A DNA stretch of 64,000 nt, from contig JAPOTR010000034.1 in assembly GCA_026709085.1 (NCBI GenBank), positions 1 to 64,000 of the forward strand, given 5' to 3'. The notes beneath the pieces are model-generated. The model was not told where the DNA came from, searched no databases, and saw nothing but the letters and a program-made list of their open reading frames with translations. Both the position numbers and the translations under genes were made by a program. The stretch comes from Cyanobacteria bacterium MAG CAR3_bin_5. GTDB lineage: Bacteria; Cyanobacteriota; Cyanobacteriia; PCC-6307; Cyanobiaceae. Below are positions 9,538 through 14,542 of this stretch, in pieces. Within the stretch, counting starts at the first letter, position 1. Each line of letters begins with the position of its first letter.

Positions 9538-10860
9538 ATGACCACCGGCGCCAGCACAACTGTGGACCCAACCCGTTTTCAGAACCTGTTCCCAGGTCTC
9601 GGCCAGGCGGAGGCATTGGCCACGCTGCGGAAGCCGCTGGAGGCATTGGAGGATGTGAGCGACCGCTACCTGGCTGCCGCCCATCTGGTGAACTTTCCCG
9701 ATGAGCAGACCATTGCGGCGCTAATGGCCTGCGCGGCTGACGGTCACCCGGCCCAGGCCCAGCGCATTGCCCGACGGAAAGCCGTGGAAAGTCTGGCCCG
9801 CCTGGAGGCCCGGCAGGCGTTGCCCGTGATTCAAGCCTGCCTGAACAGCGAGGACACCTATCTGGTGGAGAACGCCGTCTGGGCCCTGGCGGAGTTGCAG
9901 GCCCAGCCGGAGACTGTCACGGATGCCCTGCTGCAACTGTTGCAGAATGAACGGCAGAACCGCCGGGTGGTGGCCCAAACCGCTGCCCGTCTGGGGATTC
10001 GGGAAGCCGTTGCCCCCCTGGAAGCGCTGCGGCAGGAGGAGGACCCGCTCCTGGTCACCGCCGCCACCGCGGCCCTGGCGCGGCTGACCGGCAACAAGGA
10101 TGGCCTGGCCGCTCTGGAGGAGTATCTGCTCCACCCGGACGTGACCGTCCGTAGGGCGGTGATTCAGGACCTGATGGATGCCCAGGCCTTCCCTGCCATG
10201 GCGGCCATGGCGGCGGCGCCGGTGTCACCGGTGTTCCGTTTGCGGGGTGTGCGTTATCTGGCGGATCAACAGCGCCGGCATGGCGTTGTCCAAGCCAATG
10301 CTCTGCTGCCGCTGGTGGACCGGATCCTGCTGGACGATCCGGCCGCCGTCACCCTGGTGCATCGCTACGATGCCACGCCAAACCTGGACTTTCTGGTGCA
10401 GGAACTCTATGGTACGGATTTCGGGCGTGTCTACCTGGCGGTGGCTACCCTCATGGCCTCCGCCAACGGCGACACCCTGGCGGCCCTGATCCGGAGCTTT
10501 GCGGATCGGGGTTGGAACGACTATGGGGCCCATTACCACATAATCAAGCTCTTTGGCTGGCTGGGGGATCCCCAGCCCCTGCCCCTGGTGCGGGAGGCCC
10601 TGGCCAACCGCCGCCCCCAGTTTCAGAAATCCCGTCCGGCGGCGACCTTGACCCTGGCCCGTCTGGATCCCCGGCACGCAGAAGCAGCGCTGCGGGATGC
10701 TGTTTGTGAAGGGTCGTTCTGGGAACTGCGCTATGCCGCCCTCATGGGCCTGGAGCAGTTGCGGTTGCCCCCTCCCCCGGCCGCCTTGGCGGATTCCGAT
10801 TGGCTGGTGGCCCTGCGGGCCGAGGCGGTGGCTTCGCGTCATGGGCCAGCCCATGGTTGA
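9538..10860 (+). CDS. cpeY: Phycoerythrobilin lyase CpeY
   Basis: A 440-aa HEAT-repeat lyase. The N-terminal '[15 protein letters not shown]', then '[14 protein letters not shown]' and '[14 protein letters not shown]', match CpeY, which attaches phycoerythrobilin to the alpha subunit central cysteine with CpeZ as helper. Repeats run through most of the chain. A conserved C-terminal region follows ('[18 protein letters not shown]'). The start at ATG 9538 has GGGGAG immediately upstream; an upstream in-frame TTG at 9460 would extend into the divergent neighbour's start. The 3' end overlaps the dprA-like gene by 22 bp on the opposite strand, which marks the boundary of the accessory module. Confidence 0.85.
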
Positions 10861-12401
10861 GATGTCTTCCTCGGGTCGGCCAAGGGTGGCTCAACTCCGT
10901 GCCGTTCAAGCATCTCGATGAGATCAGCTTTCCTGAGCTTGCTGTAGCGCCTGATTCCGTGCCGCTTGCACAGACCCTTGAGTGTCTCAACTGTCTGCCG
11001 TTGGAGGTTTTTCTCATCTCCCGGTGAACTGTGGGAGGGGAGGAAAGACTCCTGGGCCACTGCTGATGCTGCGGCGGTGGTGGAGCAGTATTTGATACAC
11101 CTGGAAGGCTTGTCCTTGACCTTGCCCACCACCCCCTCTCTGAGCAGGTGCTTCAGGGCAGAGGATACCTGACCATCCGTGATTTGCAGATCCTGGGCAG
11201 CTTCGGGAACCGTCTTGAACATGCCGGAACACGTGAACATCTGTTTAAGCTTCATGTCAATAAAGCGTTTCAGCCAGGTATCAGCCAAAGTCCTGGGGAT
11301 CTCCATTTCCTTGGCCACGCGGTCAATGGTTCTCAGTCCATCCATTTGATTGAGCAGATCCATGACCTTGGCAAACAATTGCTCGGCTGGTGCGGGGTAA
11401 GTCATGAGAAGAGGCTTCTGGAGAACGGTTGCCTCCGGTGCAGGGGATGACGTAGTGCTCGGCCCACTGAGGATGTCTTCCAACTGCCGGGTTGTCTCAG
11501 GATTCGGCCATGGCTTTGCCCCCAGCTTTTGCAACTCTGCAAGACCCCTGGTCGGATCTTCTCCCCTGGCGCGCACGTAGACCGGCACAAGATTCAGCCT
11601 TGTGAGTTGCTCGCTGGCTCCGGCCCAGGCGCCCCCCTTCCCGTTGTCCGCGTTCACCACCAGCGCAGCGTCTGCCAATGCGTAAATCAGCTTGTTGCGC
11701 TGCATTGCATGGCCAACATTGAAGTGGGCCGCGGGATCGTATGGACAGACCAGAGCCAATCGCCCATCCATGAGTGCTTCCCGGTACTCCCTCCGTACAG
11801 CGGCCTTGTTCAGGCCGTCAGCCACAATGGCCACCACGTTCCCCCCTGCTTGCAGCGCTCCACCCATGGCGGCTTGATCAATTCCCCGGGCGCCTCCGGA
11901 GATCGCGGTGTAACCCGCTGCTGCAGTGAGTCTTCCCACGCTTTCGGTATACCTGAGCAACGTTTCATTGACATTGCGGGACCCCACAATGGCAAGGCCA
12001 CCCGCATTCAGAATCGAGGCATCGCCACAGCCGTAAAGAACCGGTGGAGCATTGTCTTTGAGCCGCCTCTTCAATCGCTGAGGATACTGGCCATCGGCTC
12101 GGCTCACGACCCAGATTGCCCGGGAGCGCCAGCGCTCCACTGCCTGGGCGAGAAGAAATCCGCGGTCGAGCAGACCTTGGAGTTGCCCGGGATCCAAGGT
12201 GATCCCACACTCCTTCAGAAGAGAGCCTCCATCAGGTTCAAGCAAATGGGCAGGCTCCCGGCGCAACTCCCGCAGCCGCCGCGCCAGACGGCGATACTCT
12301 CCTGCGGTCAGGGGATCTACGGACGGCTTGCTCCATCCGATGATCAGCGGGGCCGTCAGCAGCAAAATCGCCTGGGTGTTGGGAGACAGACCTGTCTTCA
12401 T
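10839..12401 (-). CDS. DprA-like Rossmann protein with winged-helix and SAP-like tail
   Basis: A 520-aa protein with a DprA/Smf-type Rossmann core: '[11 protein letters not shown]' (about 136-145), '[14 protein letters not shown]' (about 167-180), 'VAIVADGL', and '[17 protein letters not shown]' with '[13 protein letters not shown]'. A winged-helix-like region follows, then a SAP/Rho-N-like motif near the C-terminus ('[10 protein letters not shown]...KADLIEML'). DprA proteins bind single-stranded DNA and load RecA in transformation. The extra domains and the partner gene suggest a specialised, possibly defensive paralogue rather than housekeeping DprA. ATG 12401 overlaps the recQ stop as TGATG, which indicates translational coupling. 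Confidence 0.8.
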
Positions 12402-14542
12402 CAGCCGCGGTTCGTCAAGGCGAGGGCGAGGGGCCACACCTTGCCGCTTCCATGGGAGCGCAGCAGCCAGGCAGCAACCGTCAAGGTCCAGCGGGAATCC
12501 GCCATATCGTCCACAAGCAACACCGGGCTACGGGGTAAGGGTTCCCCGGATACCACAAGGGAGCCGTCCACGTTGCGCGCCTGTTGCGTGCTATTCGCCA
12601 TTGTCTTCTGCTCGGGGCGGTCCTTGGCCCTGTGCAGGACCCGATGGAAAGGCAGGTCCAGTTGCCTGGCCAAGCGTGCGGCAAAGTCGGGGACCAGATT
12701 CGGCCGACGTCGCGAAGGAATACAGGTAACCCACTGGGGCGCTGGATTGGGTCTCCAGCCTGCCATCAGGCTGACACAAGCGCTGACAAGCTTGTCCGCA
12801 AATCGATGATCCTGATACTTGCAACGCCTGACCACCTCTTCCCAGCCGGTATCGCTCCAGGTGCAGAGCGCCTTCCCAGGCTCCGCTCGGCGCGCCGCCG
12901 GAATGTTTCCTCTCACCTGGTATTGCGGCATCCCGCCGCCGGGCCATTGCCTGCGTGGTTCAATCCCAAGGCTGGTGCGTCGAAGGAAAACCACCGCGTC
13001 CTGCACCAGATTGGGCGCTGCCTGTGTTGGCAAAAGCGGCAGGTCCGGGAGACAAGCCGTTCCCGGATCCCCATCCAGCGCCCGAATCAGGAACTCCATA
13101 TGCCCGGACTTCAATGCCACGTACTCCTGCATCTGCCGTTGCTCGTCACGCCTCAGCCTGGTGAGGCGCTCTGCCCGTTCCCGGAAGTCGGCGCTCAACT
13201 CCACGGCAGTCAACTGCCACTGACTCCCTTCCTTGATAATTGGCGCCGGGGACTCCAGCGAGAGGAGCGCCATCGTCTTCTCGATGCGGCCCTTGCTGAT
13301 ATTGACCTTCCCGAGAAGGTCTGCAATGGACAAGCCATCGGGAGTGCGCTCAAGCGCACTGATGACCTGCTGAACTTCATGGGGTGTCGGAAAGGCGCTG
13401 CGGATGAAGTAGTCGGCAATGTCGGTCTCTTCCTCGCCACTGAGCAGCACCCCGTACGCGGCATCCAGCGCCCGCCCGGCCCGGCCCACCTGTTGGTAGT
13501 AGTGAACCACCGAGGCGGGGCTCTGGTAATGAATCACGAATCCCAGATCCGGCTTGTCGAAACCCATGCCGAGGGCGGTGGTTGCCACCAGCGCCTTGAC
13601 CCGGTTATCAAGTAACGCTTGCTCCAAACAGCGGTTGTTTCTTGTCCGTCCCGTGTAGGCACCCACCTCGATTCCCCTGGATTGAAGCCATGCCGCCACC
13701 TGATGGGCATCACGGACGGTGAGCGTATAGATAATGCCGTGGCCACCCAACTTGGGAACCTGCTCCGCCAGCCACGCCAACCGCTCCACCTGCCGAGGCA
13801 GCCGTATGGTCTGAAGCAGGAGGGATGGACGGGCAAGGTTCCCAAGTTGCACCTCCAGGTTGGGACCGAGCACCTCACCCAGATCCTCCATCACCCGGTT
13901 GTTGGCGGTTGCAGTAGTCGCCAGCAGTCTGAGGTTGGGGGGCAGGTTCTTGATGGTGCGTCCGATCCGCCGGTAATCAGGCCGGAAGTCATGCCCCCAG
14001 TCCGAGATGCAGTGGGCTTCGTCAACGACAAAGAGGGCGATGCGATCAGCGATCCCGGCCAGCACCTCTTCACCAAAGCGCTGGTTTTTCAATTGCTCGG
14101 GCGTGATGAGCAGGATGTCTACCTCATCGCGTCGCAACTGCTCTCCCACGCCCCTTTGATCCTCTCTGTTATCGGACGCGATCCGGACCGCCTTGACCCC
14201 CATGCGCTCCGCGGCGGCAATCTGGTTCCGCATCAGCGCCAGCAGCGGGGAAATAAGCAGCGCAGGTCCGGTCCCGGATTCCCGCAGCAGCTTGGTGGCA
14301 ATGAAGTAGACGAAGCTTTTGCCCCAGCCGGTTTTCTGCACCACCAAGAGCCGGCCGAGGCCTTTCACCACATGGCGGATCGCATCCTCCTGCCCCTCCC
14401 GGAACTGGGCATCCGCTCGTCCGGTGCCCTCACGCAGCAAGGCCAGAGCACGTTGGGCTTGGTACTTCATGAGCTGATCGTGACTTGTGCAGGAAAATGC
14501 CGAACCGAAAGGACTGGAATAATCCAGCTTTGTGGATGGCAT
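12401..14542 (-). CDS. RecQ-family helicase fused to a phosphoribosyltransferase domain
   Basis: A 713-aa SF2 helicase of RecQ type. Walker A is 'TGWGKS' (about 71-76). The DEAH box is followed by the RecQ signature '[13 protein letters not shown]' (about 174-190). Motif VI is 'QQVGRAGRA'. A winged-helix-like region lies after the helicase core. The last 40 residues contain a PRPP-binding loop, '[15 protein letters not shown]' (about 674-687), so a ComF/PRTase-like domain is fused at the C-terminus. This is not the usual RecQ-Ct/HRDC layout. The gene is coupled to the dprA-like gene by stop-start overlap. The pair looks like a DNA-processing or defence module, which is inference. Confidence 0.85.

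Follow-up and report, generated by a model that had tools for sequence, protein, structure and literature searches.

What is encoded by two overlapping genes of a picocyanobacterial contig, a RecQ-like helicase gene and a DprA-like gene, and do they form a defence module? The window that we analysed is a 64,000-nucleotide stretch of contig JAPOTR010000034.1 from Cyanobacteria bacterium MAG CAR3_bin_5 (family Cyanobiaceae). Gene content (petA/petC, psaF and phycobilisome-type genes) also marks the host as a picocyanobacterium. An earlier note, made from the sequence alone, had described here a RecQ helicase with a phosphoribosyl pyrophosphate (PRPP) loop, overlapping (TGATG) a DprA-like protein. 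The pair is real and intact and, judging from its sequence, is almost certainly PsyrTA (RqlHI), an ordinary member of an already catalogued anti-phage family. We consider it probable that psyrTA is a toxin-antitoxin module of accessory anti-phage defence, most likely acting via abortive infection.

Identity of the gene pair

The open reading frame (ORF) listing of the window gives two overlapping minus-strand ORFs, 12401-14542 (713 amino acids) and 10839-12437 (532 amino acids). As listed, both begin too early: picocyanobacterial PsyrT proteins align from about the ATG at 14470, and PsyrA proteins from the ATG at 12401, inside the TGATG overlap. These two ATGs are probably the starts, giving proteins of 689 and 520 residues, respectively.

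12401..14470, minus strand: psyrT (rqlH-like), RecQ-type superfamily 2 (SF2) helicase with a C-terminal phosphoribosyltransferase (PRTase) domain, predicted toxin (PADLOC, conserved start, AlphaFold2/Foldseek)
12399..12403, minus strand: TGATG, psyrT stop overlapping the psyrA start (sequence, start comparison with relatives)
10839..12401, minus strand: psyrA (rqlI-like), 520 amino acids, predicted antitoxin (PADLOC PsyrA, AlphaFold2, Foldseek)

The likeness to PsyrTA/RqlHI concerns gene order, overlap, domains and PRPP-loop acids, with near full-length profile matches. The toxin gene lies upstream of the antitoxin gene and overlaps it, and rqlH is invariably upstream of rqlI (PMC4670107). PsyrT is a RecQ-like SF2 helicase ending in a PRTase domain with the PRPP-loop acids, and matches its PADLOC model over positions 1-685 of 689 (E=7.8e-269), from residue 25 of the long ORF. 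Its DprA-like partner, with an N-terminal domain and a C-terminal helix-turn-helix (HTH), matches PsyrA at E=4.1e-122. Neither E-value could plausibly arise by chance. The PADLOC and Pfam matches, the structural models and the overlap at 12399-12403 confirm the earlier description of the pair. PsyrTA, named after a Pseudomonas syringae toxin-antitoxin, is described as an abortive-infection defence, with Sberro 2013 and Millman 2022 as sources (PMC10855318). In E. coli F11, the PRTase domain of RqlH is genotoxic and requires the PRPP-loop aspartate, while RqlI binds RqlH and restrains its toxicity (PMC4670107). A study of polyvalent proteins likewise drew attention to a fusion of helicase and PRTase, coupled with DprA, that invasive DNA might trigger (PMC5512222). 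The window copy differs from the known system in that PsyrT lacks the zinc module found in the examined gammaproteobacterial homologues, PsyrA has an additional Rho_N/SAP-like tail, and the pair lies at NFACT-gmk of a picocyanobacterium, not near a restriction operon.

Other systems share parts of this architecture. ShosTA and a P2-like phage DprA-PRTase system (PMC9122126) combine a PRTase effector with a DprA-like partner, and the ShosA structure (8zva) is close to PsyrA. However, the ShosTA toxin is a PRTase without the RecQ helicase present in the window toxin, so the pair does not qualify as ShosTA; PsyrA scores 406 bits with the PsyrA model versus 87 bits with the ShosA model (PADLOC). 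DpdF, of the Dpd 7-deazaguanine DNA modification system, is a RecQ-like helicase with a C-terminal region resembling PsyrT (PADLOC DpdF models), but the NCBIfam DpdF score is 149 against a cut-off of 550, and no other dpd gene adjoins the pair. The helicase core and the Rossmann fold are also those of housekeeping RecQ and DprA, whereas the scores fall short of both curated cut-offs (249 bits against 640 for RecQ, with no RecQ zinc match, and 93 bits against 191 for housekeeping or competence DprA).

The AlphaFold2 model of PsyrT (mean predicted local distance difference test (pLDDT) 91; predicted template modelling score (pTM) 0.87) matches RecQ cores in Foldseek, and RecQ-family motifs are detected in the protein. 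Walker A, DEAH, motif VI and the PRPP aspartates are all kept in an alignment of 87 PsyrT.

14315..14338, minus strand: Walker A motif (QKTGWGKS) of PsyrT, with a TGWGKS core common to all 87 PsyrT
12416..12883, minus strand: phosphoribosyltransferase domain of PsyrT (Pfam Pribosyltran, domain profile search)
12485..12520, minus strand: PRPP loop of PsyrT; all 87 PsyrT have the first Asp and 85 of them the second
13061..13114, minus strand: position of the RecQ zinc module, replaced by a cysteine-poor stretch (PsyrT alignment; Pfam RecQ_Zn_bind)

The PRTase assignment is based on Pfam Pribosyltran, PRPP-synthetase profile matches and the conserved aspartates. The Pfam match of the window PsyrT (E=8e-5) is under the gathering threshold for a single sequence; 43 of 72 homologues match this family, and a search with a profile of the domain retrieved PRPP synthetases (E=1.2e-5) and, weakly, PRTases. 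A tryptophan replaces the usual PRPP-loop glycine in 86/87 PsyrT and is therefore a family-wide trait. At the zinc-module position, other PsyrT carry CLMxFLxxALDDP..CGxCxxC. This four-cysteine module (Cys4) occurs in 53/87 PsyrT, as well as in a copy on an E. coli plasmid, and is absent from the window's clade; Pfam RecQ_Zn_bind matches 35/72 homologues and gives no match to the window PsyrT. The zinc-less clade spans many phyla (32/87 rows, window included); counting two isolated partial losses as well, three changes are required on the tree. The zinc module is a subgroup trait, not a defining one for PsyrTA overall.

PsyrA begins with a helical domain, followed by a DprA Rossmann domain, a pair of winged helices and a lineage-specific tail. 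The best Foldseek folds for its AlphaFold2 model (mean pLDDT 89) are DprA (3uqz) and the antitoxin ShosA (8zva).

11523..12128, minus strand: DprA-like Rossmann domain (Pfam DNA_processg_A E=8.4e-37, residues 92-293)
11082..11390, minus strand: two C-terminal winged-helix units (model secondary structure, residues 338-440; HTH_28/HTH_27 matches)
10911..11006, minus strand: Rho_N/SAP-like tail (Pfam Rho_N E=4.5e-6)

Both the winged-helix and the SAP-like additions noted earlier are thus detected, but the tail is not a trait of the system: it occurs in none of the 77 other PsyrA ORFs checked (seven picocyanobacterial ones aligned full-length). We therefore rejected it as a functional hallmark; as a feature of the window's lineage, it gives no basis for inferring the mechanism of the system. 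The tail is about 40-50% identical to Rho_N repeats of a protein of about 2,500 amino acids, which carries several such repeats and is found across the genus (in genome G000 on contig C8, at about 32-34 kb; in relatives, loci L051-L060). No closer donor was found inside the genus.

An accessory module inserted between NFACT and gmk

How did the pair reach its present position? In two genomes (G149 and G063), psyrTA separates NFACT from gmk, and in three others (G008, G091 and G114) these two genes are next to each other. On either side of the module in G149 stand direct copies (179 bp, 90% identical) that comprise the NFACT start, the intergenic stretch and the gmk start. The window retains one of them.

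14646..14831, minus strand: left arm of the target duplication, with the NFACT start, the intergenic stretch and the first ~19 gmk codons (186-bp match to the G149 right arm by intact gmk)
14596..14597, minus strand: junction where G164 has ~790 bp more (comparison with G164)

The gmk stub, which the earlier note had taken for a breakpoint, does exist (14646-14702, 57 bp with 86% identity to the intact gmk of the same genome), but it belongs to the left arm of a target duplication of ~180 bp, which dates from the insertion of the module between NFACT and gmk, and is not a break in the only gmk. A simple rearrangement through gmk was rejected, since gmk is intact, with psaF, on contig C25 of the same genome and the duplication flanks the module in relatives. 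To the right of the module the window is rearranged, and psyrA now terminates within the 3'-terminal part of a HEAT-repeat gene. Through the duplication, a copy of the gmk 5' end precedes psyrT, and transcription of the module may start from the gmk promoter duplicated with it. A simple scan of the sequence upstream of psyrT detected no sigma-70-like promoter, so that this capture is something we infer from the arrangement. In G164 (L042), the extra ~790 bp between the stub and psyrT hold a 272-amino-acid coiled-coil-like ORF directly upstream of psyrT, which the window lacks; as a candidate third component, this ORF has no Pfam match.

The module is accessory and its distribution patchy. Full-length PsyrT is encoded in 9/400 genomes of the same family; in addition, G133 has a disrupted psyrT copy and G164 a contig-end piece. 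In the PsyrT tree, the copies of the window's genus cluster with those of Acidobacteriota, a gammaproteobacterium and others, and six further family members fall elsewhere. A forced grouping of the picocyanobacterial copies is rejected (approximately unbiased test, p-AU 0.013), and PsyrA gives the same picture. The window's genus and the six other family members gained psyrTA separately, by horizontal transfer.

Across GTDB species, the scan gave at least 591 relatives, from which the best 80 loci were taken, so that the figures cover close relatives only. Among these, psyrA lies directly 3' of psyrT in 66 of the 74 loci with enough downstream sequence (64 counted directly, and two, L095 and L134, with broken psyrT frames). 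Between-species distances in the PsyrT and PsyrA trees are correlated (r=0.885; 0/2,000 permutations come close), and the two genes are inherited jointly. The ratio of non-synonymous to synonymous substitution rates (dN/dS) of psyrT and psyrA is 0.22-0.30, with dS near that of the neighbouring core gene NFACT, indicating that the module has been under selection since before these species split. A known toxin-antitoxin defence pair is placed in picocyanobacteria here, and its occupied and empty sites within one genus make gain and loss traceable at a single locus. In characterised phages (INPHARED), no full-length PsyrTA was found, only RecQ-type partial matches. Two near full-length PsyrT (L154 and L155; 68-69% identity) occur on IMG/VR contigs classed as viral; that of L154 also has psyrA and hsdM/hsdR-like genes.

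Probable abortive infection and the alternatives

Is the pair a defence system in its other hosts? The 101 proteins that surround 18 copies of diverse genomic origin match 90 PADLOC families at E<=1e-30, versus 16 families for 126 proteins in same-contig controls away from the module, 90 and 16 being counts of families, not of proteins, on crude gene calls. In G249, for instance, the surroundings of the pair include a type IIG restriction enzyme, an AHJR nuclease, HEC-03 genes and an RNA ligase; G208 has a IIG enzyme and a DrmA-like gene next to it, and G273 a DruE-like fragment nearby. A pair confined mainly to core, non-variable loci would have refuted the earlier note's proposal; this is not what we found, though the window's immediate neighbours (HEAT-repeat, NFACT and tat/pet genes) include core photosynthesis genes. 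Membership of a catalogued anti-phage family, patchiness, independent acquisition, empty sites and the defence-rich neighbourhoods elsewhere agree with the mobile defence cargo proposed in the same note.

The window pair likely works as an abortive-infection toxin-antitoxin system. From its E. coli homologue (PMC4670107), the window PsyrT is predicted to be toxic alone and neutralised by PsyrA. In the uninfected cell, PsyrA would hold PsyrT in check. Upon infection, the DprA fold of PsyrA or the helicase would sense phage replication intermediates or damaged DNA; DprA binds single-stranded DNA. With the restraint lifted, the PRTase would alter nucleotides or DNA, and the infected cell would stop growing before phage release.

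Several observations weigh against this interpretation. When expressed, one native E. coli PsyrTA slowed growth and did not detectably protect against phages (PMC12409345); with the literature mixed on this point (PMC10855318 versus PMC12409345), an anti-phage role of the window copy is a prediction. Many bacteria, chiefly Gram-positive, have RqlH without RqlI (PMC4670107), so the toxin interpretation is not universal. The toxicity data come from E. coli RqlH, and the E. coli plasmid PsyrT that we examined has the zinc module lacking in the window's clade. Finally, psyrTA of the window sits among core photosynthesis genes and not in a defence island. PsyrTA is under-represented in defence islands overall, yet significantly co-localised with other systems inside them (PMC10924106), a pattern that agrees with both the window and the relatives' loci.

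It is unlikely that the pair instead serves genome maintenance, acting on the cell's own damaged DNA or on incoming DNA, in repair or natural transformation, with toxicity in the absence of PsyrA as a side effect of imbalance. Russell and Mulvey did propose that the two proteins act together, beneficially, on the DNA of the bacterium (PMC4670107), the DprA-like protein and the PRTase resemble the competence proteins DprA and ComF, and purifying selection is at the level of core genes. However, a maintenance function fits poorly with the very patchy distribution, the separate acquisitions, the empty sites in close relatives and the defence-rich surroundings of relatives' copies, and the scores are far under the curated cut-offs of housekeeping RecQ and DprA.

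Slightly less probable still is a selfish addiction module, which would persist mainly since its loss kills the cell and bring little benefit against phages. The toxin-antitoxin behaviour in E. coli (PMC4670107) and the PsyrTA copies without phage protection (PMC12409345) would suit it, as would the state of the window copy, which stands by itself in a core locus, brings no further cargo and has been passed on vertically in the genus. On the other hand, many genomes have the pair in association with restriction systems, in some cases within a type I operon, and the pair was lost or never gained in G008, G091 and G114 and is disrupted in G133, hence not hard to lose.

The proposal of the earlier note, that helicase and DprA recognise foreign or replicating DNA which the PRTase chemically marks, is very improbable: the domain set permits it and the model of Russell and Mulvey has the PRTase altering a nucleotide in DNA (PMC4670107), but E. 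coli genetics shows a toxin restrained by a DprA-like antitoxin whose loss harms the host itself (PMC4670107), which fits abortive infection better, and no reader or cutter of such a mark lies beside the pair in the window.

Restriction genes around psyrTA

In E. coli, Vibrio furnissii and Providencia heimbachae, psyrT-psyrA is nested in a type I restriction operon, with hsdS on one side and hsdR on the other (L210 2682-12761, on E. coli plasmid NZ_OX030731; L116; L136). This arrangement recalls PrrC, which is embedded in hsd operons. The E. coli psyrTA DNA and the embedded hsdR each occur in 53/5,426 genomes (54 records, 55 places), as near-identical copies that are not independent. The embedding in enterobacteria and Vibrio would suggest that PsyrTA guards restriction systems. 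Together with the idea that the zinc-less PsyrT clade forms a functionally distinct subtype, with another DNA substrate or trigger, we regard this as doubtful. If it held, the window copy would stand alone, lack the zinc module and run on a gmk promoter that it had captured, and the tail of its antitoxin would add a further DNA-binding part. Two handles, on what PsyrT binds and on what PsyrA senses, are offered by the clade without the zinc module and by the copies within hsd operons.

Possible extra partners overlap the psyrT start in two of the relatives' loci: an RNA ligase in G249 (L037 8185-8895) and a DrmA-like STAS (DUF4325) protein in G208 (L038 6785-8032).

The window itself contains a small defence region about 10 kb from psyrTA. 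It comprises two related type IIG restriction-methyltransferase genes at 24807-27677 and 33744-36536 (PADLOC E=0), a type II methyltransferase between them (31210-32682) and, near the type IIG genes, an AbiJ-like C-terminal piece (36928-37413). Two stretches of this region, 27752-30254 and 36001-38000, have a low guanine-plus-cytosine (GC) content (0.39-0.51 versus ~0.64), and a 599-amino-acid ORF (GC 0.47) in the low-GC part has no PADLOC match. A further DNA methyltransferase gene lies at 60564-61967 (PADLOC MTase_II E=5e-68), with a GC content of 0.56, below that of its surroundings.

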